Below are positions 1 through 18,109 of a stretch of 20,040 bases of DNA, piece by piece. The DNA lies in IMG/VR virus record IMGVR_UViG_3300007539_000318, positions 1-20,040 of that record; one strand, written 5' to 3'. Numbering within the stretch: position 1 is the first letter of the stretch; the number at the start of each line of letters is the position of its first letter. A program made the position numbers and the translations under genes. Below the pieces are notes generated by a model. The model ran no database searches. It saw only the letters and a program-made list of their open reading frames with translations, and was not told the origin of the DNA. Origin of the DNA: a virus.

Positions 1-187
1 CAGAGGCCAAGTTAATGATTACGCAGCTAATCTAACAACTGGGGACTTTTACCTTAACGCTAACAAAGCCGACCAAACACAAGGACTTGTTCAAAATTGG
101 CTTGAAATGATTATATTACACGAGGCAACAAGTGCAACTACGGATACTAATATATATAATTACCTAAAAGGAAAGTGGGCTTTATAA
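1..187 (+). CDS. 3' end of an unknown protein upstream of the terminase (partial)
   Basis: An open frame enters the window at base 2 and runs for 61 codons to a TAA at 185-187. The visible C-terminus ends in NYLKGKWAL and carries no motif I recognise. The stop abuts the TTG start of the large terminase with no gap, so the two genes are probably translationally coupled. By position this could be the small terminase subunit, which often sits just before terL, but nothing in the visible residues shows that. The 5' part lies outside the window. Confidence 0.6.
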   Translation, partial: RGQVNDYAANLTTGDFYLNANKADQTQGLVQNWLEMIILHEATSATTDTNIYNYLKGKWAL

Positions 188-1501
188 TTGGCATTAACCC
201 TTAATTTTCCAGAAAAAATAGGGGGGCATCCAAAACAAGAAGCAGTATGGCAAAGTAATGCTAGGTTTATAGATATTATGGCTGGGCGCCGTGGGGGCAA
301 GGACTGGATAGGCACAAGGAAAGCTATACAGTATATATATCGAGATTTAGCCGACGGAAAAGGCATCCCAGACGATAAAGTAAATTTTAAACGGAATGTG
401 CCCAAGCTTGAGTACTGGTTTTTAGCACCTACATACACCATTATTAAAGAGGTAATGCAGCATATTTTCTTGTTCTTGCCAGAAGAGTTGATTCAAGATG
501 ACAAATCACGTTCAAACCCGCCTAAGCTATGGTTAAAGCCAAATATTTTAATCCATTTTAAATCAGGGGATAACCCGCAATCGTTAGTTGGTTCAGGCTT
601 AAACGGATGTTACATCACAGAAACCGCACGATTAAAAAAAGCGGTATGGAATGACAACCTAAGACCCACGTTATCAGATAAGCAGGGCTGGGGAATAATG
701 ACGACCACTCCGTTGCCTAACTGGTATATGGAAGACATACGACCGTTGTCTCAGCAATCCGAAAAAAAGGATAGTGAATGGGAAGGCCACTTCTGGACAA
801 CAGCCGAAAACACAACCAACCCAGAGCTAATAAAAGAGGTTGAAACAGCCAGAAGAACGATGCCCGAAAGGTACTTTAAGCGCAACTATTTAGCGTGCGC
901 CGATGCATTCCAAGGCCAGATCATAGATAACTACGATAGCAGTATTCATATAGATAAAATTCAATATAAAAAAGATGTATATAAATATATATTTTGTGGT
1001 GTGGATTGGGGGTATACCCATAACGGCTGTATATGTGTGATTGGGATAACAAAAGATGACGATATCCATGTACTTGAAGAAATAGCTAAACCAAGAGTAC
1101 CAGTTGTTAGTCAAGACCCTACGGCAGAAACATGGGTTAAATTAGCCAAGGGAATTTTAAACAAATACCCCGTTGAAATGTTTTATTTAGCGCCAGATGA
1201 GCCAGAACACATAGACCAGTTCAAAAGATCGGGCGTGTATCCATGTAGGGCCGCAGATAATGCCGTTTCCGCAGGCATTCAGTATTTATGCACGTTCTTT
1301 AATGTGGACGAAAACAAGCATACAAGAATCAAGATCAATAATACTTGTGTAAATCTTATACGTGAATTACCTAAATATCGGTGGAAGGAAACAAAAGACG
1401 AAATACAGCAAGAAGAACCCATAAAAGAAGAGGATGACAGCATAGACGCTTTACGATACGCAGCTTTTTCGTCCCGTAAGTATTTGAGGGGTACTTTTTA
1501 A
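188..1501 (+). CDS. terL: Phage terminase large subunit (ATPase-nuclease)
   Basis: The 437-residue product should be the DNA-packaging motor that cuts concatemers and pumps DNA through the portal. The N-terminal ATPase shows a Walker A-like AGRRGGKD at 32-39, a Walker B-like strand ending in the candidate catalytic E145 (CYITETA) and a coupling motif MTTTP at 171-175. The C-terminal RuvC-like nuclease shows D273 in VDWGYTHNG, D337 in APDEPEH, and the acidic EEDDSIDALRYAA at 414-426. Length and motif order fit the family. The start must be TTG at 188: an in-frame TAA sits directly before it, and the first internal ATG (residue 31) would leave the protein starting at the Walker A loop. A purine-rich AAAAGGAAAG lies about 12 bases upstream, so coupling to the previous gene may help initiation. 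Odd: position 39 after the Walker lysine is Asp instead of Ser/Thr. Confidence 0.93.
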   Translation: MALTLNFPEKIGGHPKQEAVWQSNARFIDIMAGRRGGKDWIGTRKAIQYIYRDLADGKGIPDDKVNFKRNVPKLEYWFLAPTYTIIKEVMQHIFLFLPEELIQDDKSRSNPPKLWLKPNILIHFKSGDNPQSLVGSGLNGCYITETARLKKAVWNDNLRPTLSDKQGWGIMTTTPLPNWYMEDIRPLSQQSEKKDSEWEGHFWTTAENTTNPELIKEVETARRTMPERYFKRNYLACADAFQGQIIDNYDSSIHIDKIQYKKDVYKYIFCGVDWGYTHNGCICVIGITKDDDIHVLEEIAKPRVPVVSQDPTAETWVKLAKGILNKYPVEMFYLAPDEPEHIDQFKRSGVYPCRAADNAVSAGIQYLCTFFNVDENKHTRIKINNTCVNLIRELPKYRWKETKDEIQQEEPIKEEDDSIDALRYAAFSSRKYLRGTF

Positions 1502-1504
1502 AAA

Positions 1505-1524
1505 AATATAGTGTAAAATATAAG
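1505..1524 (+). promoter_or_regulatory. Weak candidate promoter or operator before the portal gene
   Basis: The 9-mer ATATAGTGT here also occurs in the promoters at 17809 and 19799. It is followed by TAAAAT (1514-1519), a five-of-six match to the -10 consensus. No convincing -35 lies 16-18 bp upstream. Initiation about 7 bases after this box would start the RNA at the stem-loop at 1527. This is inference only; it could also be a protein-binding site shared with the early promoters. Confidence 0.3.
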
Positions 1525-1526
1525 TA

Positions 1527-1550
1527 GTAGATAATTGGGAAGTTATCTAC
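1527..1550 (+). other. RNA stem-loop with GGGA (GNRA-type) tetraloop in the portal leader
   Basis: GTAGATAATT (1527-1536) pairs with AGTTATCTAC (1541-1550), giving ten consecutive base pairs including one G-U, closed by GGGA, which fits the GNRA rule. It sits between the terminase stop and the portal GTG, 26 bases before the start. There is no U-tract after it, so it is not a simple terminator. It could stabilise the 5' end of the head mRNA or be a processing site. Confidence 0.6.
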
Positions 1551-1576
1551 ACACAAGGGCAAGGGAAAAAAATAGG

Positions 1577-3556
1577 GTGAATATATTCAACTTTTTTAGA
1601 AAAAAGACACAAAAGGGCATGTCTCAGTTTGATGCGTTCGACAAGCCTACAATAATTAATGGTACGCCAGTATTGGCCAGTCCAGAACAATATCTAAACG
1701 CTTATAACACAATTAACTACATATCGACGATGGCAGGTATTTTATCATCAGATATTGCATCACTAGAATATTTTTTGCTTAATAAAAAAGGGGAAATAGT
1801 TAATAATCTAGAATTTGAGCAGCTTATTGAGCAGCCAAACGATAATTTGACGGGCTTTGAGTTACGACAAATATCAATGCTGCATTTTTTGCTTGAAGGC
1901 AACTTTTTTTGGTTGCCAGAACAAGGCGATGCACTCGCTTTAATGAACAACAAGCCTAGCAGAATAAGCGTACTTAACCCGTCAGAAATTGATATTGTCT
2001 CTAATGGAACCATAATTAAGGCTAAAGATATATCCAGCTACAACACAATAAGCCACTATCAAGCAACAGGAACTCTCTTACAGACCCTAAACAATAGAAT
2101 GTTAAATAAAGATTCTATTATACATATAAAAGGCAGCAGCCCTTACAATGCTATACGAGGAATGGGCAAAATTCAGGCCAACGCACCTATGCTAGAGATC
2201 GATATGTACCAAAACATTTTTAATAAAGCATTTTTTAGGCAAGGAGCAATGTCAAACCTTGCAGCAATGCAAAAAGAAGACCTTGGACCACAGCAATACG
2301 AAATGTGGAAGAAAGCTATAGATATTCAATATCAAGGGCTATCTAATATGCATAAAATTATTAAATTACCGCCTAACACAGACGTAAAACCGCTTAATTT
2401 ATCGCATAAAGATATGGATTTTTTAAGCCAAAAAGAAATGACCCGTCAGGATGTGGCTAATATTTTTGAGTTGCCACCCGTTATTTCAGGCGATTTAAAC
2501 AAAGTACAAGGATACAGCAGCACGCAACAAATGAAGCGCTACTTCAAAAACACATTACCTAAGTATTCTAAACAGCTTGCTTATGCTTATCAGAACATTT
2601 TGAATAGGTTTGATAAAAGCCTAACCTTTAAATTTAAGTATCCAGTGGCTATCGATAGAAACGAAGAGTCAGAGGTTGGTCAAAGATTGTTTGATCGTGG
2701 GGCAATATCTCAAAACGAATACAGAGAAATGCTTGGGCTGCCAACTGTTGAAGATCAAGAGGCTAACAATAGATACATAAAAACTGATTATATTAATGTA
2801 GAAACACTAGACGAGCTTAACGCAAGTAATTTAATACAGACAACAGAAAAAGAGTTTAAAAAAACGTATATATCTAAAGCGTTAGAGAATTTCAACCAAG
2901 ATAATTTTATACGCTTTTCTAAAAGAACCAGAGAAAAAATCGCAAATAAAATAGCTAAAGACATAGCCTCATTTTATAAAAAACAAGAAAGTAGAGTCCA
3001 AACAGGATTAAAAAAAGCAGCGAACATAAAAGACCTTTATAATGTCAGCGTTGAAACAAAAGAGCTAGAAAAAACAGCTAAAAAGATGTTCACATCTGCA
3101 TTAAGCATATCTTATAACGAGTTAAACGAATACTTTGATATAGAATTTGATGCTACTACAAAAAACCCCGTATTCAATAAACAAGTGGCTACCCTAACAG
3201 ATAAGATAGTTGAACAGATAACGCCTAGCCGTAAGGAAGAATTAGAGCGATTACTTAATGTAATGGTAGACGAGGGGTTAAGTCTTAGCGAATTATCCAG
3301 CCAGATAGAAGATTTATACGGCACATTAGACAGTACCAGCGGAAGCAGAGCAATGAGAATAGCCAGAACAGAGGCAAGCAAGACATGGGATACAGCAACC
3401 ATTCAATCGTACAAAGAGTTAGACGTAAAAGTAGTTGATGTTGTTGGGTGTGACGATGAAGTACCGGACTGCAACAAGAAGAACGTACCTATTGAGGAAG
3501 CGTCTCAATTAACATTTCACCCTAATCACACAGGGACAATTGTACCAAGGAGTTAA
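1577..3556 (+). CDS. Portal protein fused to a C-terminal MuF-type head morphogenesis domain
   Basis: The 659-residue product begins NIFNFFRKK, typical of HK97-type portals, which form the dodecameric ring at the capsid vertex. Roughly residues 25-400 are the portal body: ASPEQYLNAYNTINYISTMA near the start, then a segment containing MTRQDVANIFELPPVISG, usual for the portal stem and wing. After a lysine-rich helical linker, about residues 560-659 resemble the SPP1 gp7/MuF family, with RIARTEASKTWDTA at 594-607, GCDDEVPDC and a terminal HPNHTGTIVP. In most phages these are two genes, so this is a natural fusion. I chose GTG at 1577 because AAGGG lies just upstream and the family N-terminus begins there. 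An in-frame TTG at 1535 falls in a stem-loop. The gene ends two bases before the protease ATG, and the protease ribosome site lies inside its last codons. Confidence 0.9.
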   Translation: MNIFNFFRKKTQKGMSQFDAFDKPTIINGTPVLASPEQYLNAYNTINYISTMAGILSSDIASLEYFLLNKKGEIVNNLEFEQLIEQPNDNLTGFELRQISMLHFLLEGNFFWLPEQGDALALMNNKPSRISVLNPSEIDIVSNGTIIKAKDISSYNTISHYQATGTLLQTLNNRMLNKDSIIHIKGSSPYNAIRGMGKIQANAPMLEIDMYQNIFNKAFFRQGAMSNLAAMQKEDLGPQQYEMWKKAIDIQYQGLSNMHKIIKLPPNTDVKPLNLSHKDMDFLSQKEMTRQDVANIFELPPVISGDLNKVQGYSSTQQMKRYFKNTLPKYSKQLAYAYQNILNRFDKSLTFKFKYPVAIDRNEESEVGQRLFDRGAISQNEYREMLGLPTVEDQEANNRYIKTDYINVETLDELNASNLIQTTEKEFKKTYISKALENFNQDNFIRFSKRTREKIANKIAKDIASFYKKQESRVQTGLKKAANIKDLYNVSVETKELEKTAKKMFTSALSISYNELNEYFDIEFDATTKNPVFNKQVATLTDKIVEQITPSRKEELERLLNVMVDEGLSLSELSSQIEDLYGTLDSTSGSRAMRIARTEASKTWDTATIQSYKELDVKVVDVVGCDDEVPDCNKKNVPIEEASQLTFHPNHTGTIVPRS

Positions 3557-3557
3557 A

Positions 3558-4154
3558 ATGGAATTAAAACAAAAAGCGATATCGTACCTTAAAAGCAAGA
3601 ATATAGAACTTGATTCAACGCACGCAACCATCCAAACTATCAATAAAATATGCCCATCTTGTATTGATGGGGACGATAAATTATACGTAAAAGGCTATAT
3701 AACCACATTCGAAAATATGGACTTAGAGGGTGACGTGGTAGACAAAGAAGCTTTTAACGAAACATTAGAAGCAAATAAAGTTGTACCGCTATTAAGAAAT
3801 CACATGAATTCAACAGTAGACCAGATGGGAGCTTTTACTAAGTTTACTATAGACGATAAAGGGGTGTTAGCAGAGGGATATATAAGCAACACACCCGAAA
3901 CCCAGCACGAACGCCAATTGATTAAGGATGGCGCACTAAATAGCTTTTCAATGGGTGGTTTATGCAAATATGAGAAAAACATAATTAAAGATGTCATATT
4001 GTTAGAGGCGTCGATCGTGCCTATCCCTGCAAACGATCAAGCTAAATTTAAGGTCAAAACAATACAAGAGAAATCTAAGGAAGTACCGCTAGAGGAAACC
4101 AAAGAGAGTATTACAACACGTATAAAAAGGCTTAAAAAATTAATTAAGGAGTAA
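3558..4154 (+). CDS. HK97-type prohead protease
   Basis: This 198-residue protein should be the maturation protease (S78/U35 family) that trims the capsid protein and scaffold after prohead assembly. The core from about 43 to 165 shows the family pattern: YVKGYITTFENMDLEGDVVD, a candidate catalytic His82 in LLRNHM, a candidate Ser131 in NSFSMGG, then EASIVPIPANDQA. Length is normal. The C-terminal tail (about 170-198) is highly charged and helical. ATG at 3558 follows AAGGAG (3547-3552) by five bases; an in-frame TTG at 3540 has no such site. It lies between portal and capsid, the usual HK97 order, and is five bases from the capsid gene. Confidence 0.92.
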   Translation: MELKQKAISYLKSKNIELDSTHATIQTINKICPSCIDGDDKLYVKGYITTFENMDLEGDVVDKEAFNETLEANKVVPLLRNHMNSTVDQMGAFTKFTIDDKGVLAEGYISNTPETQHERQLIKDGALNSFSMGGLCKYEKNIIKDVILLEASIVPIPANDQAKFKVKTIQEKSKEVPLEETKESITTRIKRLKKLIKE

Positions 4155-4159
4155 ATAAA

Positions 4160-5509
4160 ATGAACGAATTTGTAACAGAATTATTATCTAAAAATGTTTG
4201 TGTAGATGAAATTATTTCAAAATGTGCTGAAAAGTTTTCAGACTTGAGCGACAATGAGATAGTGAAGGGAATTGAAACCGCAAAAAGAGCATTTGAAATA
4301 AAAAAGTCTTTAGAAAAAAGTGCCCAAGAAAAAAGAGCTTCCGACGCTTTAAATGAAAGAGTTGAAAAAGCTATCGAGGCAAAACTAAAAGAAATCAAGG
4401 TTCCCTCACTGCTTGAAAAATCAGCTTCACAAGTTGAAGTATCAGAGCCAGCAGGGGCATGGCGTGCAGATGTTGCTAAAGCTTTCAGACTAAAGAAAAA
4501 ACAAAGCGAAGGCACATTCACACAAAAAGATGCAAGCGAAATGGCTGAACTTTGCCAAAAAGCTGAAAACGTAAGAAAATCTGCAAACGGATTAACCCCA
4601 GATATTGCTTTAGAAGGTGGCAACCCTATCCGAATAGAATTTGATCAAGAGGTTGATAAATTAGTTTATACTAACAGCCAGCTACTTGATGCTGTTCAAA
4701 TAAGACAGGGAACACAAAAAACCCAGATCAATGGACTAACTAACACCGATTTTACTTTTAGAGCGGATACCCGTTCAGACTATGCAGAACAACGACCAGA
4801 CACACTAGCAGAAGTTGTTGAATATAAAACAGCAGGCCAGTTGATTTTCATTGCTAACACAATGTTTGAAGATGTAGACTATAACCTAGTTTCAGAATTA
4901 ACCGAATTAGCAGCAGACGCAAAAATCAGACTTCTTGAGCCATTAATTGCTTCAGGCGATAGTTCAAGTGCATTCTTGGGTATCAATTTTAGTGCAGGCG
5001 TTACAGCATTAGACTGCATTAATATTTCAGGTGGTTCAGGAACAGGAAACGGCGATATTGTAGACAATGATTTAAGCAACATGTATGCCGCAGCTGCTAG
5101 CCAAGGGCGTAACCAAGGCGTGTTTATTCTTGATACAAGAGAATGGCTAAGAATCAAAAACGAGAAAGACAGCCAAGGTATGCCAATTAATGCTGTATCT
5201 ATGGTTAATGGTCAGATGATTCATAACGCTACAGGCCGTCCAATTATTTCTTCTGATTTAATGTCTAGAACAAATAACGCTTTAGTTGCTAACACTGGTG
5301 GCACCGACGTTACTGTTCTGTTTGGCTCTCTACCTAATTTTAGAATTTACCAAAAAGGGCAACTAGAAATTGCTACTAGCGCTGATTATGCTTTCGCAAG
5401 TGCTGAAACTGCTATGCGTGTTCAAATACATTACAAGCAGGCAATGCCTAGCCAATCAAGCAGTAAGTTCGTAACACTACAAGGGGTAAAAAATAACCCA
5501 TTAAGCTAG
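4160..5509 (+). CDS. HK97-fold major capsid protein with N-terminal scaffold (delta) domain
   Basis: The 449-residue product builds the icosahedral shell. Residues 1 to about 140 are charged and helical (many Lys, Glu and Ala), like the delta domain that acts as internal scaffold and is removed by the protease encoded just upstream. From about 150, GGNPIRIEFDQEVDKLVY and the following strands look like the HK97 fold: an E-loop-like stretch around INGLTNTDFTFRADTRSDYA, EVVEYKTAGQLIFIANTMFED, the spine helix TELAADAKIRLLEPLIASGD, and a final beta-rich segment with AMRVQIHYKQAMP. ATG is set by AAGGAG at 4146-4151. A strong stem-loop follows the TAG stop. It is probably the most abundant protein of the window. 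Confidence 0.9.
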   Translation: MNEFVTELLSKNVCVDEIISKCAEKFSDLSDNEIVKGIETAKRAFEIKKSLEKSAQEKRASDALNERVEKAIEAKLKEIKVPSLLEKSASQVEVSEPAGAWRADVAKAFRLKKKQSEGTFTQKDASEMAELCQKAENVRKSANGLTPDIALEGGNPIRIEFDQEVDKLVYTNSQLLDAVQIRQGTQKTQINGLTNTDFTFRADTRSDYAEQRPDTLAEVVEYKTAGQLIFIANTMFEDVDYNLVSELTELAADAKIRLLEPLIASGDSSSAFLGINFSAGVTALDCINISGGSGTGNGDIVDNDLSNMYAAAASQGRNQGVFILDTREWLRIKNEKDSQGMPINAVSMVNGQMIHNATGRPIISSDLMSRTNNALVANTGGTDVTVLFGSLPNFRIYQKGQLEIATSADYAFASAETAMRVQIHYKQAMPSQSSSKFVTLQGVKNNPLS

Positions 5510-5538
5510 TTTTAGAGATTTATTAGTTTAGAATGAAA

Positions 5539-5581
5539 GTAGCCCCTTCATCTTTCCCCTTTTTTGTGATGGGGGGGCTAC
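5539..5581 (+). terminator. Strong stem-loop after the capsid gene (attenuator or RNA-stability element)
   Basis: GTAGCCCCTTCATC (5539-5552) pairs with GATGGGGGGGCTAC (5568-5581) over 14 positions, two of them G-U, leaving a 15-base pyrimidine-rich loop. It is the most G+C-rich structure in the intergenic DNA here. The downstream arm is followed by CGTAAC with no T-run, so classic intrinsic termination on the plus strand is doubtful. It may protect the 3' end of capsid mRNA or reduce transcription into the connector genes. Confidence 0.55.
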
Positions 5582-5603
5582 CGTAACAAGGGAGGTATAA
5601 AAA

Positions 5604-5774
5604 ATGAGTGAAAAAAATGGAATATTAAGAGTAGGGTTTTATAAAGATGGATACCAGCTTAAAGCAGGCGATTCAATTAAAGTAACAAAAGAATTACTAG
5701 ACAAAGGCTATTTTGTTAAGGGCACTAAATTGCCAGAAAAACCAAAAAGAAAAACAAAAAAAACAGAAGAATAA
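5604..5774 (+). CDS. Small basic protein between capsid and connector genes (unknown)
   Basis: This 56-residue ORF has an excellent ribosome site, AAGGGAGG at 5589-5596, eight bases before ATG. The first 40 residues look like a compact beta-alpha unit (GFYKDGYQLKAGDSIKV, then a helix LLDKGYF); the tail KLPEKPKRKTKKTEE is very basic. Its layout resembles the small gene at 7386: an aromatic hairpin ending in GD-I, a helix ending in F, then a charged tail. Small genes in this position encode head decoration or joining factors in some phages, but I do not recognise the family. Confidence 0.8.
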   Translation: MSEKNGILRVGFYKDGYQLKAGDSIKVTKELLDKGYFVKGTKLPEKPKRKTKKTEE

Positions 5775-5786
5775 AAGGGCATTAAA

Positions 5787-6347
5787 ATGGATTACTGTAC
5801 TATCGATGAATTAAAAAGAAAATTAAAACGACCAACAGGAGCGGACGTATATAACGATACCTATCTAGGCGAAGCGATCACACGTTCAAGCAGAATAATT
5901 GACACATTAACAAGCACTTTTTTTTATGAAAAAACAATATCCAATTTGATAATTGATAGATACAGTATTATAGATAATATAGCCATTTTAAATAACACAA
6001 TTATACTAAACGCACCTTTGACAGATACAGTGCCAATAGTAATTGTTGAAGACGAAAAAGCACTAACAGAGAACACAGACTTTTATGCATATAAAACAGC
6101 AGGCACAATTGAAAAAAGTCATAGTTGGTCAACAAACAGAAAATCAATAGACCTTACATGTTCTATAGGCTACACAACACCGCCAACAGATATAGTGACG
6201 GCAACTTTAGAAATCGCACAAATACTTACAGGGCTAGGCGTTCAAGTGGTACAGGGCGACGATGGGGACATAGAGGGCTTTATATCAACTAAGATACCTT
6301 CAATTGTCAAAAAAACCTTAAATAGATATAGGTGGGTTACAATTTGA
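5787..6347 (+). CDS. Phage gp6-like head-tail connector (adaptor) protein
   Basis: The 186-residue protein has the usual layout of HK97 gp6-type adaptors, which bind as a ring under the portal. An N-terminal helix (YCTIDELKRKLKRPTG) is followed by a helix with SSRIIDTLTSTFFYE, a central beta region (IAILNNTIILNAPLTDTVPIVIV, about 65-90), a short insertion ending in GYTTPPTDIVTATLEIAQ, and a C-terminal segment KKTLNRYRWV. The repeated shape of polar N-terminal helices, a beta centre and a C-terminal helix, together with its place after the capsid gene, supports the call. AAAGGG lies upstream of the ATG. Its TGA overlaps the TTG start of the next gene. Confidence 0.75.
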   Translation: MDYCTIDELKRKLKRPTGADVYNDTYLGEAITRSSRIIDTLTSTFFYEKTISNLIIDRYSIIDNIAILNNTIILNAPLTDTVPIVIVEDEKALTENTDFYAYKTAGTIEKSHSWSTNRKSIDLTCSIGYTTPPTDIVTATLEIAQILTGLGVQVVQGDDGDIEGFISTKIPSIVKKTLNRYRWVTI

Positions 6348-6889
6348 ATCTAGAATTACAAAACATGGAAAAGACAGTCAATGAACTTCTTGATATAAAT
6401 TCAGGTATCAAACGAGAATACCCTAAAGTTATTAAGCAAACCGCAATCTTTGCATTCAAAGAAATCAAAACAGACTACCCCAAAAAAAGTGGGTTTGCCA
6501 GACAATCGTTTCAGCTCGCAGGGCTAACACCTACCAGTTATGAAGTCGCATCAAAAGCACCTCAAGTAAATGTATTAGAAAACGGAGCAAGAGCGCACAC
6601 TGTAAGGCCAAAAAAAAGGAAATACTTAACAATCCCTATTAAAGATAGCGTAAAAACTAAATCAGGAATCAAGCAATCAGCCTTAAATAAACTTTTTAAA
6701 GAATTAAAAAAACCTAAGGGAAGAAAAAAGTATGAAATATTTAAGGATGTAGGGATTGTATTATCTAAAAAAGCCAATATCCCAGCCAGAAGAGCAAAAA
6801 AGCCTTTAGCTAAAATTTTTGTACCCAAGATAGATAAAGAAATGATAAAAAATACTAACGAAATGCTTACAAAATTGGGGTTTAGATAA
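6344..6889 (+). CDS. HK97 gp10-like head closure / neck protein
   Basis: This 181-residue basic protein carries the signature region of the HK97-gp10 family, VLENGARAHTVRPKKRKYLTIPI (about 80-102), preceded by helices with YPKKSGFARQSF. Members act at the head-tail junction. I prefer the TTG at 6344, which overlaps the preceding TGA (TTGA) and has AGGTGGG seven bases upstream. A GTG at 6332 is in frame but would lie within or upstream of that ribosome site. Pro-Ala-Arg-Arg-rich residues from about 140 (IPARRAKKPLAKIF) are probably a strand-loop near the C-terminus. The gene ends in TAATG, shared with the next gene, so expression is coupled. Confidence 0.75.
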   Translation: MNLELQNMEKTVNELLDINSGIKREYPKVIKQTAIFAFKEIKTDYPKKSGFARQSFQLAGLTPTSYEVASKAPQVNVLENGARAHTVRPKKRKYLTIPIKDSVKTKSGIKQSALNKLFKELKKPKGRKKYEIFKDVGIVLSKKANIPARRAKKPLAKIFVPKIDKEMIKNTNEMLTKLGFR

Positions 6890-7389
6890 TGGGAGTTTAC
6901 ACAAGCATTATTACAGAATTTAAAAATAGAATTGATACAGCTATGCAATCAGGTAACTTACTTGATGACGTGGTCAATTTTCAGATAGGCAACAAATTAC
7001 AAAACGACGGCACAAATTCTTTCCCTAAATTAGTATTAAATGCTAGCAGCTCATTTATTAGCGAAACATTTGAAGCGTGTTCAGCCAACAAAAAGGAAGC
7101 TGATGTTGGATTGGTTCTTACGGTTCTATGTAGAACTACAGGGACAGGATCAGACAACTTTTATTTTGATGGTACTAATGGAATTTTACCTTTAATTGAA
7201 AGAGTTTTAGACGTGATCAGCAGTAAAACGGATGGCAGCCTAGATCCCAGATTATTACAATACGGAAGAAAATCTAGCGTTATATCAGTGGGCAGCATCA
7301 GCACCTATCAAGACGATATAGTCTATTGCGATATCAATTTAACCTTAAATATAAAAGATTTTGTAATAAACAACAGGAGGGAAGAATGA
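6889..7389 (+). CDS. Probable tail-completion / tail terminator protein
   Basis: The 166-residue product has an N-terminal helix (MGVYTSIITEFKNRIDTAM) followed by alternating strands and helices: FPKLVLNASSSFIS, VGLVLTVLCRTTGTGSDN, ILPLIERVLDVIS and a final beta hairpin ending DINLTLNIKDFV. This alpha-beta layout and length resemble the gpU/gp17-type tail terminators that cap the tail tube. The position between the gp10-like gene and the tail tube matches their usual place. I see no diagnostic motif, so the call rests mainly on position and size. Start and stop overlap the neighbouring genes by one and four bases. Confidence 0.55.
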   Translation: MGVYTSIITEFKNRIDTAMQSGNLLDDVVNFQIGNKLQNDGTNSFPKLVLNASSSFISETFEACSANKKEADVGLVLTVLCRTTGTGSDNFYFDGTNGILPLIERVLDVISSKTDGSLDPRLLQYGRKSSVISVGSISTYQDDIVYCDINLTLNIKDFVINNRREE

Positions 7390-7571
7390 AAATAAAATGT
7401 ATTACAAATAAAAGAACTGTAACCGTTGAGGGCAAACGCTACAGTTTTAGCTATGGTGACATAAAAGAATTGCCCGATTCTGCAATGAAGTTAGCAGAAA
7501 CCCCATTTTTTGAGGCCGTGAAAGAAGAAATAAAAGAAGAAACAAAAATTATAAAGGAGAATGAATTATGA
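7386..7571 (+). CDS. Small acidic-tailed protein before the tail tube gene (unknown)
   Basis: This 61-residue ORF starts at an ATG that overlaps the previous TGA (ATGA) and is preceded by AGGAGGG at 7375-7381, the best ribosome site in the region. The first 30 residues are beta-like (MKIKCITNKRTVTVEGKRYS, then YGDIKEL), followed by a helix DSAMKLAETPFF and an acidic tail rich in Glu and Lys. The overall plan is like the 56-residue protein at 5604, though that tail is basic. It also ends in ATGA overlapping the tail tube gene. Tight packing and strong initiation make it a real gene; its role is unknown, perhaps at the head-tail joint. Confidence 0.8.
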   Translation: MKIKCITNKRTVTVEGKRYSFSYGDIKELPDSAMKLAETPFFEAVKEEIKEETKIIKENEL

Positions 7572-8617
7572 CATGTAATGTAGCGCAAGGGTGGAGTTCT
7601 TATATTGGATTTGGAACGCAGACAGTAGACCAATTTACAGCAGCAGACCCAACAATATTTCAGGAGTTTAATGCCGACGAATCATTGCAGGAGGTGGAGC
7701 CAGACAAGGGAGCCGTAGCAGGTGGCATTAGATATTCACAAAGCAAAACTAGCGTCAAGCGTGGCAAGAAATCGGTAGAAGGTTCAAGCGGAACAGGCTT
7801 TTTATATCCTAACGACTATTATTTTGCGAAGATATACGCTGCAATCCTTGGGAACAATCAAACAGTATCAGGCGATGCCACAACAGGCTATACCCATACA
7901 TTCAACGAGCCAACAACTAAAGCTCAGTTTCCACAATACGGCCAAACTATTGAGGTATTACGTGGCGCAGAGGCTACAGTAGGCGTAGCTAACGAAAACC
8001 TTTTTAAATATATTGGATGCTTTGCCAACACTGTAACCCTAACATTGCCCGAAAATGATAACGTATCACTTGCTGCGGAGTGGATAGGGATTAAAGAAGA
8101 ATACAACGCAACGCCCAATGTTACGCCAACATTCTCAGAAGTGCCTCAAATTGAATCATGGCAAGCAGTTATTAAAATTGGAAACACACTAGGAACAGCT
8201 ACACAAATTAAATATTCAGATGCCACTTTTTCTATTACAAAAAACGTTGTGTTAACTCCCGACGGTTCTAGCCAGTACCCAGACTGTGCAGTTTTCGACA
8301 AACCAGACTACACCATACAGCTAAACCAAATAACAACAGATTTAATAGCTAGCGGACTTTATGGGGCGTGGAAGAACAATACAGACCAAGCCATGATTAT
8401 TGAATTGACCAGCGATTCATTGGCTGGAACATCCTCAGGAAACTATAAAGTAACTATAAACATTCCTAGAGTTACATTGTTAGGAGATACGCCAAATGTT
8501 AGCGGCACACAGCAATTCATGACTCCAGTACGTTTCCAAGCATTAGAAGATGCAACAGAAGGTTATACAGTACAAATTCAAGTAGTGGATGCAGTAGCAG
8601 GAACCTACGACGTTTAA
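7568..8617 (+). CDS. Major tail tube protein
   Basis: The 349-residue protein is almost entirely beta-structured and Gly/Thr-rich, as expected for the stacked hexamers that form a siphovirus tail tube. Features include an N-terminal segment with SLQEVEPDKGAVAGG, a KRGKKSVEG strand, and a long beta domain with TVTLTLPENDNVSLAAEWIGIKEEY around 155-180. A C-terminal half resembles a second tube-like repeat (ATFSITKNVVL, IELTSD, YKVTINIPRVTL). It ends in VQIQVVDAVAGTYDV. The position before the tape measure supports the role. The ATG overlaps the stop of the small gene before it. At about 350 residues it is longer than single-domain tube proteins. Confidence 0.75.
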   Translation: MTCNVAQGWSSYIGFGTQTVDQFTAADPTIFQEFNADESLQEVEPDKGAVAGGIRYSQSKTSVKRGKKSVEGSSGTGFLYPNDYYFAKIYAAILGNNQTVSGDATTGYTHTFNEPTTKAQFPQYGQTIEVLRGAEATVGVANENLFKYIGCFANTVTLTLPENDNVSLAAEWIGIKEEYNATPNVTPTFSEVPQIESWQAVIKIGNTLGTATQIKYSDATFSITKNVVLTPDGSSQYPDCAVFDKPDYTIQLNQITTDLIASGLYGAWKNNTDQAMIIELTSDSLAGTSSGNYKVTINIPRVTLLGDTPNVSGTQQFMTPVRFQALEDATEGYTVQIQVVDAVAGTYDV

Positions 8618-8620
8618 AAA

Positions 8621-8642
8621 AAGTAGCGACAAAGTAGCGACA
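8621..8642 (+). repeat. Perfect 11-bp tandem duplication
   Basis: AAGTAGCGACA occurs twice back to back (8621-8631 and 8632-8642), filling most of the 26-base gap between the tail tube stop and the next ATG. It occupies the place where a ribosome site would be expected, and neither copy has a Shine-Dalgarno sequence. It looks like a recent slippage duplication. Confidence 0.8.
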
Positions 8643-8643
8643 A

Positions 8644-8892
8644 ATGAATTTTTTATTTAGGTTAATGGCTATAAGTGTATTGTTTTGGGTTAGCGTGTAC
8701 TTGCTTAATATTGTATTGCACGACCCGAAGCAATCCCTATATATAAACATTTTATTTTATGGGCTTATATTTATGCTTAGGTTCTTGTATTTTCTTTGGA
8801 AATTATCAGGCGCCAATACCGAGCTTTTTTGGGAATACAACGAAGCTAAAAAATCAAAACTAAAAAATGTATCGTTACAGAAAAAAAAATAA
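8644..8892 (+). CDS. Small two-segment membrane protein between tail tube and tape measure
   Basis: The 82-residue product has two hydrophobic stretches, about 5-26 (FRLMAISVLFWVSVYLLNIV) and 33-54 (YINILFYGLIFMLRFLYFLW), followed by a polar tail ending in lysines. That is a small inner-membrane protein by appearance. The position is odd: siphovirus genomes usually carry tail-assembly chaperones here. No Shine-Dalgarno is visible before ATG 8644, only the tandem 11-mers, so initiation may be weak or start at the in-frame ATG at 8668. The gene ends in a run of nine A residues and a TAA four bases before the tape-measure ATG. Function unknown; holin-like or superinfection-related roles are possible but unsupported. 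Confidence 0.6.
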   Translation: MNFLFRLMAISVLFWVSVYLLNIVLHDPKQSLYINILFYGLIFMLRFLYFLWKLSGANTELFWEYNEAKKSKLKNVSLQKKK

Positions 8893-8896
8893 TTAA

Positions 8897-10042
8897 ATGG
8901 CAGATAAAATAACACGGGTTTTAATACAGGGAAAAGAGACGGTATCCAAAGCTTCTAAAAAGGCAGGCGTTAGTTTAAAAAGCTTAGCTAAAACGGCCTT
9001 AAGCTCTAAATTAAGTATTGCAGCACTTGGAGCAGCAGCGCTATTTGCTGTTAAGGATTTTGCAGAGTTCGAGAAATTGATGGTTAATGTTGGCAACCTT
9101 ACCAACGCCAGCCGCGAAGAAGTAAAACGCATGTCCAAAGAGGTTATAGCACTATCTAAAACAACCCCAATTGCTGCGAATGATCTAGCGCTTGCTTTAT
9201 TCGATGTTCAAAGTGCTGGTGTAGATGCTGCTGATAGTATTAAATTTTTAGGTGTAGCGTCCAAGCTTGCCGTTGGTGGTGTAACGGATGTAAAAACGGC
9301 CGTTGATGGGCTTACGTCAATAATGAACGCCTATTCAATGACTGCTGCCGACGCTGAAAAGATATCAGATAAGCTGTTTATGGCTCAAGTTCAGGGCAAG
9401 ACAACAGTAGAGGAATTATCAACCGCCATAGGGCGAGTAGCGCCCGTTGCTAATGCCGCTGGAATATCATTAGATGAGTTGTTATCAAGTATTGCTAGTT
9501 TAACGGCACAAGGAATAAATACCAATGAGGCAGTAACAGGGTTAAAAGCTGCTATATCTGCTATCACAGCGCCGTCGGAGCAAGCGCAGAAGGCTGCCGA
9601 GGATTACGGCATAGAATTAAGCCAAACAGCCCTAGAGGCAAAAGGGCTAGAAGGGGTTTTAAGAAGTGTAACAGAAGCTACAAAAGGCGATGTGGGTGCA
9701 CTTAAAGAACTTTTAGGTTCTCAGGAAGCCGTTAACGCTGTCATTGCCTTAGCTAAAGACGATTTTAACAAGCTTAACGACAGTATTAATAAAGTAGCAA
9801 ATTCAACAAAGGCAGCAGCCAAAGCAAACGAAGAGCAACTTAATACTTTAAGTAGTCAATGGGCAATTTTTAAAAACAACGTAATGGCGGGCTCAAAAGC
9901 ATTAGGAGGCGCTCTTTCTGTAATTATTAAACCACTTCTTGAAATAGCAAATGGATTTTCAGCAATTATAAGCAAAACAAAAGAGTGGATAAAAAGTTTT
10001 AATGATTTAGGAACTCAAAGCGTTGAAGAGTTAAACCAATAA
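8897..10042 (+). CDS. Tape measure protein, N-terminal part (TP901 core), ended by in-frame TAA
   Basis: The 381-residue ORF contains the TP901-type tape measure core at about 50-260: FAEFEKLMVNVGNLT, EVIALSKTTPIAANDLA, ALFDVQSAGVDAADSIKFLG, and the long series of Ala-rich helices with VEELSTAIGRVAPVANAAGI. Tape measure proteins set tail length and are injected with DNA. The ORF stops at TAA 10040-10042, but the same frame continues without another stop into the ORF at 10055, whose product is a typical tape-measure C-terminus. This is therefore either one gene broken by a nonsense change (CAA to TAA would fit), a leaky stop, or two genes. No Shine-Dalgarno is visible before ATG 8897; coupling to the gene four bases upstream may be used. 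Confidence 0.85.
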   Translation: MADKITRVLIQGKETVSKASKKAGVSLKSLAKTALSSKLSIAALGAAALFAVKDFAEFEKLMVNVGNLTNASREEVKRMSKEVIALSKTTPIAANDLALALFDVQSAGVDAADSIKFLGVASKLAVGGVTDVKTAVDGLTSIMNAYSMTAADAEKISDKLFMAQVQGKTTVEELSTAIGRVAPVANAAGISLDELLSSIASLTAQGINTNEAVTGLKAAISAITAPSEQAQKAAEDYGIELSQTALEAKGLEGVLRSVTEATKGDVGALKELLGSQEAVNAVIALAKDDFNKLNDSINKVANSTKAAAKANEEQLNTLSSQWAIFKNNVMAGSKALGGALSVIIKPLLEIANGFSAIISKTKEWIKSFNDLGTQSVEELNQ

Positions 10043-10054
10043 TTAGAAAGGCTG

Positions 10055-10975
10055 ATGTCTAATCAAAATTTATTGAGGGTTACTCAACAAGCATCCAATC
10101 AAGAACGTATAGAACAAATACAAGCAGAGCTTGACGCAAGAAGAGAAGCAGCAGAAGAAGAAGCGGCATTATTACAAGAGCAAGCAGCCAAAGAAGCAGA
10201 AGCAAGAGCAGCTAAAGCAGAAGCCGAAGCAGAAGAAATTGAACGAAAAAAAGAACAGGCGTTAGAACTTAAAGAGTTTATGGACGAACTTAAAATGATG
10301 GACGATGAGCAGGAAGCCGAGCGTCTTTTAATTTTAGCCGAAAACGAAAGCATTTCATTAGAAGAAAGGCTTAAGGCCATTGAAAACTTTTATAAAAACA
10401 AGGCAAAAAGTAGAAATAAAGATTTAACTTTAGAGCAGATAGCAACTAAAGAAATAATTAAAAGTAGCTCCGAAATGACGGACATATTATCAGGAAATCA
10501 AGGCAACATAGCGAAGGCAACGCTAGACTTTGCAAAAAATACGGCGAATAAAACTATAGATATAAAAGTGGCTGAGGAAGTAGCAAAAGCGACAGCAGCA
10601 GGGGGGATGAGCTTTGGAGCAACCCTTGCACTTATTGCTCCCATAATAGCAGCAGGAGCAGCAGGTAAAGCAGCCGTAAACGCCATATTTCACCAAGGGG
10701 GCGTTGTTGGTCAGGATAACGGAACGGCCACAGGTTCTAGCGCAAGTATGGGTGGAATAAAAGCAGATGAGGTTGTAGCTAAGCTTCAAACTGGCGAAGA
10801 AGTTTTGAGTAGGGCGGAACGGTCAGAATTAATTGAATTGATGCGAGATATCAAAGAAGGCGGTATTGGTGGTGGAAATCTGCCCATGATTAACGTTATG
10901 ATTGAGTTAGATGGGGATGTTTTGGGGGAAAAGATTATAGATATCCAAGATCAGGTAAAAAAGGGGATAGTATAG
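10055..10975 (+). CDS. Tape measure protein, C-terminal part (same frame as upstream part)
   Basis: The 306-residue product begins with a long Ala/Glu-rich coiled coil (about 15-120, for example AEARAAKAEAEAEEIERKK). A hydrophobic segment follows (GATLALIAPIIAAGAAGKAA, about 190-215), then the end typical of tape measures, FHQGGVVGQ and AKLQTGEEVLSRAE. It is in the same frame as the ORF ending at 10042, separated by TAA plus four codons (LERL), and the junction reads as a continuous helix. AAAGG lies only three bases before ATG 10055, too close for a good ribosome site, so separate translation would be weak unless coupled. Joined, the two parts would give about 692 residues. The coiled-coil DNA (10135-10265) is rich in GAAGCA-type repeats. 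Confidence 0.8.
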   Translation: MSNQNLLRVTQQASNQERIEQIQAELDARREAAEEEAALLQEQAAKEAEARAAKAEAEAEEIERKKEQALELKEFMDELKMMDDEQEAERLLILAENESISLEERLKAIENFYKNKAKSRNKDLTLEQIATKEIIKSSSEMTDILSGNQGNIAKATLDFAKNTANKTIDIKVAEEVAKATAAGGMSFGATLALIAPIIAAGAAGKAAVNAIFHQGGVVGQDNGTATGSSASMGGIKADEVVAKLQTGEEVLSRAERSELIELMRDIKEGGIGGGNLPMINVMIELDGDVLGEKIIDIQDQVKKGIV

Positions 10976-11902
10976 ATGCCAAATAGTCCAGGCGATAACA
11001 TATTTAGACCTAAATTTTTATATAAAAATAAAATTAAGGCAACAGAATTATATTCTAGTTCAGCCACAGACTCGGGCGACCCAGCAGGCGTAAACATTCC
11101 AATGAATGCAATTGAAGCCAATAAACTAGTAGACAGAAACCCAGACGTATATTCAAGGTATACACAAAAAAGTGGCGCAGAAGTAAACTGGATACCATCG
11201 ACACCACAAAAAATTAGTAGAATTATTTTACAAAACAAAAACCAAAATACAGGCGTTGCGCTTGGAGCTGAAAGAATATTATTTAGCTATAGAGATACGT
11301 TGGGCGTTGAAAGTATTTTTATAGATATAGCTTTAAACGCAGTAAGCACAGGCGTTGAGCCATTTAGGAGCTATATTTTTGAGTTTCCAGAAATCGAAAT
11401 ATCAGAATTAAGATTAATTCAAGGGTTCGACCCTACCTATAACCCAATAGGAACGCCATATCAACTAGGACAATTTATTGCCACAAACGAAATTATGGAG
11501 TTTTCAAGCAACATGGGGCATGTTATTAAAGATAAGCCACGGTTAATACAAAGATTATTAAAGCTAAGCGATGGCTCGACTAGTAAGACTTTTATTAGAA
11601 AAATATTTAACTATGATATGAAAGTTCTTAATGTTAGAGATGACGACCTCAATAATATAAATGAGGTTGAGCGTATCAATAGAACTGATAGCTTTATATT
11701 TATACCTAACGGCATTGAATTTCAGAGAAATCCATATTCAGCAGGGAATCCAACAATAATCACAAACCTTAACGAATGGTGGGACGGTAGGGCAGGACAT
11801 TATAATTTTAAACGATTTGAACTTGAAGCGTTTACAGCCGATTATCGCTTAAATGGGAAATCAGGCCGGCTAGACATAGAGCAAGCAGCAGGCGTTAGAT
11901 AA
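10976..11902 (+). CDS. Tail-tip associated protein (unknown family)
   Basis: The 308-residue product follows the tape measure directly, where distal tail and hub proteins are encoded. It is beta-rich with few Cys and no signal peptide: FIDIALNAVSTGVEP, YIFEFPEIEISELRLIQGF, then a C-terminal region ending LNEWWDGRAGHYNFKRFELEAF and RLNGKSGRLDIEQAAG. The first half, with FRPKFLYKNKIKATELYSSS, resembles carbohydrate-binding or jelly-roll architecture, but I recognise no family. AAGGGG precedes ATG by about nine bases, and the ATG directly follows the previous TAG. Role in the tail tip is inferred from position only. Confidence 0.7.
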   Translation: MPNSPGDNIFRPKFLYKNKIKATELYSSSATDSGDPAGVNIPMNAIEANKLVDRNPDVYSRYTQKSGAEVNWIPSTPQKISRIILQNKNQNTGVALGAERILFSYRDTLGVESIFIDIALNAVSTGVEPFRSYIFEFPEIEISELRLIQGFDPTYNPIGTPYQLGQFIATNEIMEFSSNMGHVIKDKPRLIQRLLKLSDGSTSKTFIRKIFNYDMKVLNVRDDDLNNINEVERINRTDSFIFIPNGIEFQRNPYSAGNPTIITNLNEWWDGRAGHYNFKRFELEAFTADYRLNGKSGRLDIEQAAGVR

Positions 11903-13170
11903 TGAGTAATATTAAAGAATTGATCACACGGGGTTCTAATTCAATATTTAGGCGTGTATCAATCAAACGCCTTCAACTTAACAATCAATATGAACCAGAT
12001 TGGGGCGATATCACAAGCTATGTTATCAAGTTCGGTACAATCAGAAGCTCATATAATGATATTACCTTTTTAGGCAACACAAACGTGACAGGAGCAACCT
12101 TAAAACTTGATAATTCTAGAGGTCAATTCAATGACGAAAACACAATCACAAGTTTATTTAATGGGTTCAAAACAAGATACCGCACCAAGTTTAAAATTGA
12201 GGTAGGCTATATTGATGACGATCAAAACGAAGTGGAAGGGCTTGTTTTTTATGGGATACTTTACGGCGACCCAACGACAAACGACAACGGCACAATTAAT
12301 ATTAAACTAAGCAGTTTACTTAAAGTTTTTTCTAATTATGCAGCCGAGGGGATAGCTACAGGCGCAGGAACAACAGAGGAATTAGTGGATAGATTAGTTA
12401 AAAAGACACAGGGTGGAGTAAGAATATTTGATAATTTCTTTGAGGGGGCGACAGATGCCGACAAGTACAAAATTAATCCTAGAGGCATAACAGGTTTACT
12501 TAATATAAATAACCCAGAAATTGAAGATGATGCCAGCGTGTTTGATAAATTAAAAGATTATTCTTTGATTGATAATTTTTATTTTGGCGTTGATAATTTA
12601 GGGGCGTTTGTTTGGGATGAAAAAGTAGAAAAGAATGTTATAAGCTGGTATTTCAACGGCTCAGGTTTAAATGATAATGACTATGGAGTAAATATAGTAT
12701 CCGTTCCTAAGCTCATTCAAGGCTTAAACAATACGTGGGGAAGGGTTGCTATTGAATATGGCAATGGTACGGCTGTAAGTGCTGCTTCTTGGACACCCAA
12801 TGACGGCAGCCCTCAAGATTTGTACGGTGAAAGAACTTTTAACTATACGCTCAAAGAATTATCTGTAAGCGAAGCCAGCGACATGGCCTTAAAAATAAGA
12901 CAGATATACCAAAACCCTAAACGAGAATACACGATTAACACGACGTTTATTCCACATTTAGATTTGAACGACTGGGTTAAAATTAATTATCTAGGCGAAC
13001 CAACAGCAGGGGAGCAGATCATTATAGGTGAGTTTGTAATTGGTGATACGTCTATTCCTATAGGTGGTACACAGGGCAGTATTAATATTAGGAATCAAGA
13101 CGCAAAAATTATTGGTATAACGCTTAATTTAGATAATTTGACAAGCCAGTTTGTGTTGAGAGAATTTTAG
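11902..13170 (+). CDS. Probable tail hub / baseplate-type tail protein
   Basis: The 422-residue protein begins with helix-poor beta structure: WGDITSYVIKFGTIRSS (about 33-50), TGATLKLDNSRGQFND, then IEVGYIDDD and VFYGILYGDPTTNDNGT. Its layout of a DIT motif, an L-N-S-x-G-x-F turn and a G-x-L strand is one I associate with phage tail hub or attachment proteins. The middle has an alpha-beta section (VDRLVKKTQGGVRIFDN), and the C-terminus carries further strands (GEQIIIGEFVIGD, AKIIGITLNLDNL). It starts on the TAATG shared with the previous gene and is followed by the fibre-like gene, so a place at the tail tip is likely. The family assignment is tentative. Confidence 0.6.
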   Translation: MSNIKELITRGSNSIFRRVSIKRLQLNNQYEPDWGDITSYVIKFGTIRSSYNDITFLGNTNVTGATLKLDNSRGQFNDENTITSLFNGFKTRYRTKFKIEVGYIDDDQNEVEGLVFYGILYGDPTTNDNGTINIKLSSLLKVFSNYAAEGIATGAGTTEELVDRLVKKTQGGVRIFDNFFEGATDADKYKINPRGITGLLNINNPEIEDDASVFDKLKDYSLIDNFYFGVDNLGAFVWDEKVEKNVISWYFNGSGLNDNDYGVNIVSVPKLIQGLNNTWGRVAIEYGNGTAVSAASWTPNDGSPQDLYGERTFNYTLKELSVSEASDMALKIRQIYQNPKREYTINTTFIPHLDLNDWVKINYLGEPTAGEQIIIGEFVIGDTSIPIGGTQGSINIRNQDAKIIGITLNLDNLTSQFVLREF

Positions 13171-13185
13171 AATAAGGAGGAAAAA

Positions 13186-13965
13186 ATGACTACAATATTA
13201 AACCAAAGCGAATATGACAACGGTCAGGTACTTACAGATGTAAAACTGCAAACCATTAATGAGCAGCTTTTTGGTGACTTTTTGCCCAACGATGCAGCAG
13301 AACCGCATGTAAATACCGACGGGCAGCAAGATATAGGAACTCAGACTAACCGTTGGCGTCATGGTAATTTTAGCGATGAAGTGCGAACAGGCGATAATCC
13401 GACTATTGGAGGTGGGGCGTTTTTAGCTGGCTCCGACGGGGTGAATAAAGGGTTTACTTGTTCGAATTTTACTGGTACAAGTCATAGGTTTTTTCGTGAT
13501 TCAGATGTAGGCTACGTATCACGAGGGGTGTCAACTCGACAAAGCCCAGCATTTACTGGTCAGGGTATGGATACCGCAGGAAGAATATCACATGGGGTTA
13601 ATAACGCTGCACCTTCATTTATCGAAGGCTACAATCTTAATGGAAGAATTAGAGCATACAATACCCCTAAAGCTGGGGCGTTACTAGATCATGCATTAGG
13701 AGCCGTTCTTAACTCATTTGGATTTTCTTCTATAAACTTTATTAATTTGGGGGGGGGGTTCAGAGGCGTAAGGTGTACGTTTGATGCTAATGCAGCACCG
13801 CCAGATGTTAATTATTATGTAACATCAGCGTCAGATGATATAGACGGTTCAGGCCTATCTGGAGCTTTAATAGTTAATAAAACTACAGCAAGAATTGACT
13901 TTGGCACAGAAGCTGGGCGTGATTCAAGATTTGCTAGTTTCTTAATTTATTGGGAGGGCGTGTAA
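13186..13965 (+). CDS. Tail fibre / receptor-binding-like protein containing a G10 tract
   Basis: The 259-residue product has an N-terminal stretch with DIGTQTNRWRHGNFSDEV (about 49-66), the kind of short motif seen where trimeric fibre shafts begin. A Gly/Ser/Asn-rich, helix-poor region follows (GGGAFLAGSDGVNKGFTCSNF, RISHGVNNAAPSFIEG), and a beta-type C-terminus ends ASFLIYWEGV. That composition suits a receptor-binding protein. The ribosome site AAGGAGG is strong. Bases 13749-13758 are ten G in a row, encoding residues 188-191 (LGGG). Losing or gaining one G would end the protein within four to nine codons, deleting about the last 68 residues. Confidence 0.6.
   Translation: MTTILNQSEYDNGQVLTDVKLQTINEQLFGDFLPNDAAEPHVNTDGQQDIGTQTNRWRHGNFSDEVRTGDNPTIGGGAFLAGSDGVNKGFTCSNFTGTSHRFFRDSDVGYVSRGVSTRQSPAFTGQGMDTAGRISHGVNNAAPSFIEGYNLNGRIRAYNTPKAGALLDHALGAVLNSFGFSSINFINLGGGFRGVRCTFDANAAPPDVNYYVTSASDDIDGSGLSGALIVNKTTARIDFGTEAGRDSRFASFLIYWEGV
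13749..13758 (+). repeat. G10 homopolymer inside the fibre-like gene
   Basis: Ten consecutive G residues lie in an otherwise AT-rich gene. With nine G the frame meets TAA at the codon after GCG; with eleven it meets TGA after GTACGTT. It is one of two G10 runs in the window and could switch the receptor-binding protein by slippage. Confidence 0.9.
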
Positions 13966-13967
13966 TA

Positions 13968-14456
13968 ATGGCAACTATTATTATATTTATGGATAGTGAT
14001 AATCGATTAAATAGATTAGTAAATTCAACTAAAGAACATAGAGAACCATCGCCAGAAGAAGGGGGCGAAGACATTATTATACCGCCACTCACTACAGACG
14101 AATTGATGGCAAAAGATTACCCAGATATTACAGACTATTGCGAAATAGACACGTCAGAATTACCCACCCTATTTAAAGGCGCTTGGGTTAAAGAAGGGCA
14201 GTCCGTTGTGGTTGATATGCCACAAGCTAGAGAAATACACATGGACGATATTAGAATAGTCCGTAATCAAGAGTTAGAAAAAAAAGATAAAGAAATATAT
14301 ATAGCAGAAGATACGGGCGATCAAGCACATATAGACAGCCTTAGAGCAGAAAGGCAGGTTTTAAGAGATATCCCACAGACGTTTGACCTTAGTGGCGCAA
14401 CGACACCAGAAGAACTGTATGCATTATGGCCTTCTGAATTACCGCCAAGAGAATAA
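13968..14456 (+). CDS. Tail fibre assembly-like protein (fibre-associated chaperone)
   Basis: The 162-residue product ends in a pattern common to caudal fibre-assembly proteins: IRIVRNQELEKKDKEIYIAE, a spacer, then AERQVLRDIPQTFDLSG and LYALWPSELPPRE. In that group an R-N-x-x-L helix is followed by R-Q-x-L-R-D-I-P and W-P at the end. The N-terminal half is shorter and acidic (PSPEEGGEDIIIPPLTTDEL). I chose ATG 13968 because the previous gene's TAA lies just before it and a GGGAGGG site sits 10 bases upstream. A GTG-type start at 13950 would overlap the previous gene. It directly follows the fibre-like gene, as these chaperones usually do. Confidence 0.6.
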   Translation: MATIIIFMDSDNRLNRLVNSTKEHREPSPEEGGEDIIIPPLTTDELMAKDYPDITDYCEIDTSELPTLFKGAWVKEGQSVVVDMPQAREIHMDDIRIVRNQELEKKDKEIYIAEDTGDQAHIDSLRAERQVLRDIPQTFDLSGATTPEELYALWPSELPPRE

Positions 14457-17519: not shown

Positions 17520-17768
17520 ATGAAAAAGAAAAAGAAAAAAAAGACTAACGCAAAATATGATTATGATATAAATATAATTAAGCGCCTAGAAAATGCTGGG
17601 TTGTCTATACGTAAAATTTCACTTATGCATGGCTGGAACTACCAGAACACCCACCAGTGGATTTCAAGGAATTATAAAAGACAATATGACGAGAAAATGA
17701 ACGTAAATTACATTGAGCTTGCAGAACGAAGCACCGACTTAAAAAAACAGACTGAGTTCAGTTTTTAG
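17520..17768 (+). CDS. Small HTH-like DNA-binding protein
   Basis: The 82-residue product begins MKKKKKKK (an A-rich coding run) and then shows a probable helix-turn-helix at about 20-50: IKRLENAGLSIRKISLMHGWNYQNTHQWISRNYK. The G-L-S-x-R-x-I-S then W-x-x-W-I spacing is like an HTH of transposase or regulator type. AAGGAG is just after the previous TAA and eight bases before the ATG. It may regulate the nearby promoter with the G10 run; that is inference. The A-run is prone to transcriptional slippage. Confidence 0.65.
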   Translation: MKKKKKKKTNAKYDYDINIIKRLENAGLSIRKISLMHGWNYQNTHQWISRNYKRQYDEKMNVNYIELAERSTDLKKQTEFSF

Positions 17769-17790
17769 TTGGTGAACGGCTTTTATTATT

Positions 17791-17800
17791 GGGGGGGGGG
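17791..17800 (+). repeat. G10 homopolymer upstream of early promoter 2
   Basis: Ten G residues end eight bases before the -35 of the promoter for the Cro-like gene. The context is very AT-rich. It lies where an UP element or activator contact would be, so tract length could change promoter strength without altering the -35/-10 spacing. Confidence 0.9.
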
Positions 17801-17808
17801 TTGAGACA

Positions 17809-17837
17809 TTAACATTAAAATGATATAGTGTTATTAT
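17809..17837 (+). promoter_or_regulatory. Early promoter 2 (TTAACA-N17-TATTAT, extended -10)
   Basis: TTAACA (17809-17814), 17 bp, then TATTAT (17832-17837), preceded by ATATAGTGT. The last 11 bases are identical to those of promoters 1 and 3. It lies just after the HTH gene and before the Cro-like gene at 17864, which it should drive together with genes to about 19802. Confidence 0.8.
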
Positions 17838-17863
17838 CTTATTGTTAAGAAAGGAGTGAGAAA

Positions 17864-18109
17864 ATGAGAGAGCAACGAAGAATAAGAGCAAAACTAAAAG
17901 AAGAAGCGTTTTTTAGAGCATTAAAGGCAGAATTATTGAACCAGAAAGAATTTAGTATTAAGATAGGTTCACAGAATCCACAGTATATATCTAAATTGAG
18001 CAATCCAAAACATAGTGATATAACGGCAAGCCCTACCTATGTTAAGCGCATATTAGACGGATTTTCAGGGAAATATACTTTTGATGAACTGATGTATTGG
18101 GTTGACTAA
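17864..18109 (+). CDS. Cro/XRE-like HTH regulator
   Basis: The 81-residue product is the right size for a small phage regulator. Residues about 23-50 (AELLNQKEFSIKIGSQNPQYISKLSN) read as an XRE-type helix-turn-helix, with E-F-S-x-K-I-G as the first half and Y-I-S-K-L as the recognition helix. The C-terminus (TYVKRILDGFSGKYTFDELMYWVD) is helical. AAAGGAGTGAG before ATG 17864 is a good ribosome site. It is the first gene after the promoter at 17809 and may control that promoter or its relatives. A minus-strand hairpin follows its stop. Confidence 0.7.
   Translation: MREQRRIRAKLKEEAFFRALKAELLNQKEFSIKIGSQNPQYISKLSNPKHSDITASPTYVKRILDGFSGKYTFDELMYWVD

Follow-up and report, generated by a model that had tools for sequence, protein, structure and literature searches.

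The window, a 20,040-base IMG/VR virus fragment considered along its full length, was a siphophage-like genome fragment with its genes read on the + strand. We located the following features, with the label of the tape measure taken from its position and sequence character:

188, + strand, terminase
1598, + strand, portal
4160, + strand, capsid
7568, + strand, minor tail protein
8897-10975, + strand, tape measure
11902, + strand, tail protein
13186..13965, + strand, probable tail fibre or receptor-binding protein, 259 aa
13648..13962, + strand, C-terminal beta domain of the fibre, residues 155-259, severed by any frameshift in the G10 tract
13749..13758, + strand, G10 tract in the fibre gene, codons TTG GGG GGG GGG TTC (Leu188-Gly189-Gly190-Gly191-Phe192)
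13968..14456, + strand, tail-fibre-assembly-like protein
14488, + strand, endolysin
16881, + strand, Rad52-like protein
18924, + strand, replication initiation protein

Gene order and a weak similarity of its C-terminal part to predicted phage tail fibres mark the 259-aa product of 13186-13965 as a probable tail fibre or receptor-binding protein. Its gene is flanked by the tail protein (11902) and by the fibre-assembly-like gene (13968), whose product matched, with E-values of 3e-6 and 7e-6, families annotated as tail fiber assembly in PHROGs and gave a Pfam Phage_tail_APC match that falls just below the cut-off. A homologue in the sister phage G002 was 59% identical overall and 43% identical over the last 105 residues, compared with 93% for the preceding tail protein, and the N-terminal part of the fibre was more conserved than the C-terminal part. 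The last 105 residues were modelled as a beta domain (mean pLDDT 65), with the three glycines of the tract at a predicted turn between two beta strands; because of this placement, a frameshift in the tract would remove the remainder of the domain. Comparison of the model (pLDDT 65) with a viral structure library returned weak best matches (E about 1e-3 to 1e-1, probability 0.9-1.0), several of which were named tail fibre or tail spike. The original prediction had called the gene fibre-like, and this identity is probable given the gene order, the divergent tip and the weak fold matches, although Pfam, PHROGs and NCBIfam gave no match above cut-off for the 259-aa protein and a PDB search by sequence and fold returned nothing significant. 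The product would presumably bind a host receptor.

Ten consecutive G were found at 13749-13758 on the + strand, exactly where the original prediction had placed them, and form a real simple-sequence repeat. Reading-frame computation gave a product of 194 aa after the loss of one G (G9) and of 199 aa after the gain of one (G11), compared with 259 aa at full length. In either alternative frame a stop was reached within 4-9 codons and the 68 residues 3' of the tract were lost, in agreement with the prediction. By this computation, a one-unit gain or loss at the tract would switch the product off or on, as it does at a phase-variable locus. The length of ten is within the class of fast-slipping homopolymers (about 8 or more), and the tract would make the fibre gene mutate easily.

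Long homopolymers may slip during transcription, and phage tail genes with frameshifted products are known. The tract could accordingly be read as a site of transcriptional or ribosomal slippage from which a single genome makes both a long and a short fibre. However, neither alternative frame offers a useful extension before its early stop, and the site is not conserved in G002, so that we regard slippage at the level of expression as very unlikely.

Exactly two G10 runs were present in the window, both on the + strand (13749-13758 and 17791-17800), which confirms the count given originally; no C run of five or more was observed in the window. G runs thinned out about threefold per added base, with 38, 9, 3 and 2 runs of lengths 4, 5, 6 and 7, none at lengths 8-9, and the two at length 10. 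Two G7 runs were weighed as additional tracts but dropped, since the one at 5571 resembles a terminator-like hairpin stem (AGTAGCCCC...GGGGGGGCTAC) and the one at 18913 occupies a Shine-Dalgarno position (AGGAAAGGGGGGGAATAATG). With a G frequency of 0.204, independent bases give an expectation of about 0.002 G10 per strand. This figure, put forward in the original prediction, is right for independent bases but too strict as a null, since the expectation rises to 0.005 with an order 1 model of local dependence and to about 0.05-0.07 with order 3. After the tracts in the window had been shortened, Markov models of order 2-4 were also trained on it, and each was used for 300 simulations. One run of at least 10 appeared in 7-13 of the 300 simulated windows per model (about 2-4%), and two such runs appeared in none of 900. 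When synonymous codons were shuffled with the proteins held fixed, a coding G10 was recovered in 63 of 3000 sets (2%) and a run of at least 9 in 6% of sets. From these simulations and shuffles, the pair of G10 runs exceeds chance under every null tried, whereas a single coding G10 at Gly-Gly-Gly is no more than mildly unusual and is unremarkable when many windows are scanned.

Among the contigs found, only the window spans the fibre tract. Two contigs were near-identical to it: G001, with two differences over window positions 1-13639, ends 110 bp before the tract, and G003 showed one difference over positions 1-8250. The starts of the window and of G001 are at most 4 bases apart, though G003 continues leftward, which marks a shared assembly break. 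Heterogeneity in tract length was set aside as the cause of the G001 ending, because an assembly that branches on tract length would be expected to break within the tract and not 110 bp earlier.

An assembly or sequencing error in the tract length, either a true 9 or 11 misread or a consensus drawn over mixed reads, was considered because one contig covers the tract and G001 ends short of it. The window also has a TAA, in frame, at 10040 where G001 reads GAA, so that one base or more in the contig is suspicious. However, only tract lengths that preserve the frame leave the fibre gene open, and the frame then continues into a domain with a full-length homologue, and the other homopolymers in the shared part (A8-A9, T8, G6-G7) are identical between the window and G001. 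An error in the length is, in our judgement, quite improbable. The TAA itself (10040-10042) splits the tape-measure gene, which is a single 741-aa frame in G002, and is either a nonsense variant or an assembly error.

Identity of G002 to the window was 89% for the terminase, 93% for the tail protein and 59% for the fibre, and G002 was the only relative with a fibre alignable through the C-terminal domain. No G run was observed at the tract site in this fibre. The N-terminal part is still recognisable in the short fibre encoded by the distant relative G004 (terminase 50% identical), and no G run was observed in this homologue either. The tract is thus not conserved at the same place in these relatives, with only two fibre homologues compared. 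The original prediction of a switch had proposed as its own test whether related phages lack the run, and the G002 and G004 fibres provide evidence against it.

Long G runs were instead observed at non-homologous places, namely the fibre and an intergenic site in the window, the tape measure in G002 and another structural gene (a G8) in G004. The G002 run is a G9 in the last part of the tape measure, where GGG GGG GGG encodes three glycines. The homologous site in the window encodes the same three glycines with other codons:

10868..10876, + strand, GGT GGT GGA in the tape measure

Synonymous differences have therefore produced a long G run in a gene that is an implausible target for switching, as turning a tape measure on and off makes no sense. 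Long G runs thus shift from gene to gene in this phage group, as expected from drift with slippage and not from a maintained switch, though two fibre homologues are few.

Searches of viral contigs with the flank of the fibre tract gave three unrelated chance matches only, and searches with the downstream gene and the flank of the second tract gave no contig that started after the first tract or spanned the second. No host or prophage was found in GTDB genomes with the tail protein and terminase, and no match in INPHARED with the fibre, its C-terminal domain or the tail protein. The portal had relatives at only 22-25% identity, from Bacillus and Geobacillus phages.

The second G10 run lies between genes, upstream of a small reading frame:

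17791..17800, + strand, intergenic second G10 tract, immediately followed by a -35-like hexamer
17801..17829, + strand, promoter-like site TTGAGA-17-TATAGT, from a consensus scan
17864..18109, + strand, 81-aa protein encoded 3' of the second tract, with 64% identity to its G002 counterpart

This run was absent at the homologous intergenic place in G002. As the region shows no excess of promoter-like sites over shuffled sequence (25 found vs 22 expected), the promoter at the second tract is a candidate only and serves as a lead. The 81-aa protein had no family match in profile searches. Words of the TGGTGAAC type were observed upstream of its gene (window 17768-17867) in both phages, TGGTGAACGG in the window and GTGAACGCATGGTGAACACATG in G002, and are possibly repressor sites.

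Together, the two runs could be taken for a selected contingency locus, in which slipped-strand mispairing at the fibre G10 toggles between a full-length (ON) and a truncated (OFF) fibre, the second G10 modulates the promoter driving the 81-aa gene, and the population is mixed. One run lies in a probable receptor-binding domain and the other abuts a promoter-like site, both frameshifts in the fibre truncate early, and a length of 10 is typical of phase-variable poly-G tracts (PMC6321876). Variation of a promoter poly-G is known for porA (PMC3639595), though there the run is between -35 and -10. Several observations stand against such a locus: the fibre tract is absent in G002 and G004, the sister phage has its G9 in a tape-measure gene, and the promoter match does not rise above shuffled sequence. 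The OFF state would, moreover, probably be a dead end without an alternative tail-tip fibre in the contigs. We consider a selected locus of this kind rather unlikely.

Neither a second tail-tip fibre nor an integrase was recognised in the contigs, all of which are fragments, in family scans covering part of their genes. A truncated fibre would lack much of the tip, and because no other tail-tip fibre was recognised, an OFF genome would depend on fibres supplied by other genomes in the same cell. The mixed particle types originally envisaged thus find little room here, as the OFF form is probably non-infectious and not a useful alternative particle. A phage with poly-G contingency loci of its own, at the receptor-binding tip and at a promoter, with each burst a heritable mix of fibre states, is in our view unlikely. 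As a caveat to the argument from a sole fibre, a 498-aa protein encoded just upstream of the terminase (L097, 8064-9557), of which window positions 2-187 hold the C-terminal end, is a possible second adhesin or head-decoration protein. It gave a weak concanavalin/laminin-G-like lectin match and is conserved in G002.

The explanation we favor is that the fibre tract is probably an incidental, slippage-prone run of glycine codons and not an evolved on/off switch. The tract would have arisen by drift, as three adjacent glycine codons following a TTG leucine codon all became GGG, at a turn in the fast-changing C-terminal domain of the fibre, and slippage may have helped fix the length at ten. A run of 9 G can originate when three successive glycine codons drift neutrally, a route recognised for poly-G tracts (PMC6321876). 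With slippage presumably raised in the host, the tract would act as a mutational hotspot, and G9 and G11 genomes would be expected more often than changes at ordinary sites. Such genomes would encode a fibre cut inside the C-terminal domain, which would probably not work, and would thus probably give rise to occasional defective fibres; most genomes of this kind would be defective, to be eliminated or rescued by reversion. Against drift, no null tried accounts for two G10 in 20 kb (0/900), and one of the pair sits in the gene most expected to profit from variation. The comparison also covered only two fibre homologues, and the tip is the most divergent part of the gene.

Across a viral collection of 2.9 million contigs, the exact string TT-G10-TT was found in 72 stretches, and those on the sense strand in credible genes included a further fibre-like protein (L017), so that phage fibres with a G10 are rare but not limited to the window. 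DNA methyltransferases with a sense-strand G10 were observed in five contigs (L029, L075, L083, L088, L050). Four G10 methyltransferases are ParB-methyltransferase fusions with the tract just before the DPPY motif (VEKLMGVGGGVDMLLTDPPYN). The G10 methyltransferases in viral contigs are candidates for phase-variable phage methyltransferases. No phage fibre switched by a poly-G tract was found described in the literature searched. If the tract switches, bacteria that evade phages would share their cheap hypermutation device with the phages themselves, and ordinary metagenomic reads would suffice to measure receptor phase variation from the phage side. If incidental, the tract serves as a useful warning: since the sister phage carries a long G run in a tape-measure gene, finding one in a fibre gene is no evidence of a switch on its own.

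Phage fibres are known to vary through the invertible segments of Mu and P1 and through the diversity-generating retroelement of Bordetella phage BPP-1. As in these systems, variation in the window phage would fall on the C-terminal receptor-binding part of the fibre. In those phages, however, an enzyme swaps one working tip for another, whereas a change of one G here only truncates, and neither an invertase nor a reverse transcriptase was seen in family scans covering part of the genes. Poly-G variation at a promoter, with which the second tract (17791-17800) may be compared, is known from porA of Neisseria, where the run lies between -35 and -10 (PMC3639595) and not, as in the phage, upstream of a putative -35-like hexamer. 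A further likeness is to the poly-G genes of Campylobacter, where lengths of 9-10 are typical of phase-variable tracts (PMC6321876): in both, 9-10 G lie in a reading frame of an AT-rich genome and a probable surface protein is cut short when one G is gained or lost. Tract lengths vary within most homology groups in Campylobacter (PMC6321876), whereas the phage tract is known at one length and is not conserved, and the OFF state of a sole fibre would probably be lethal for the virus.
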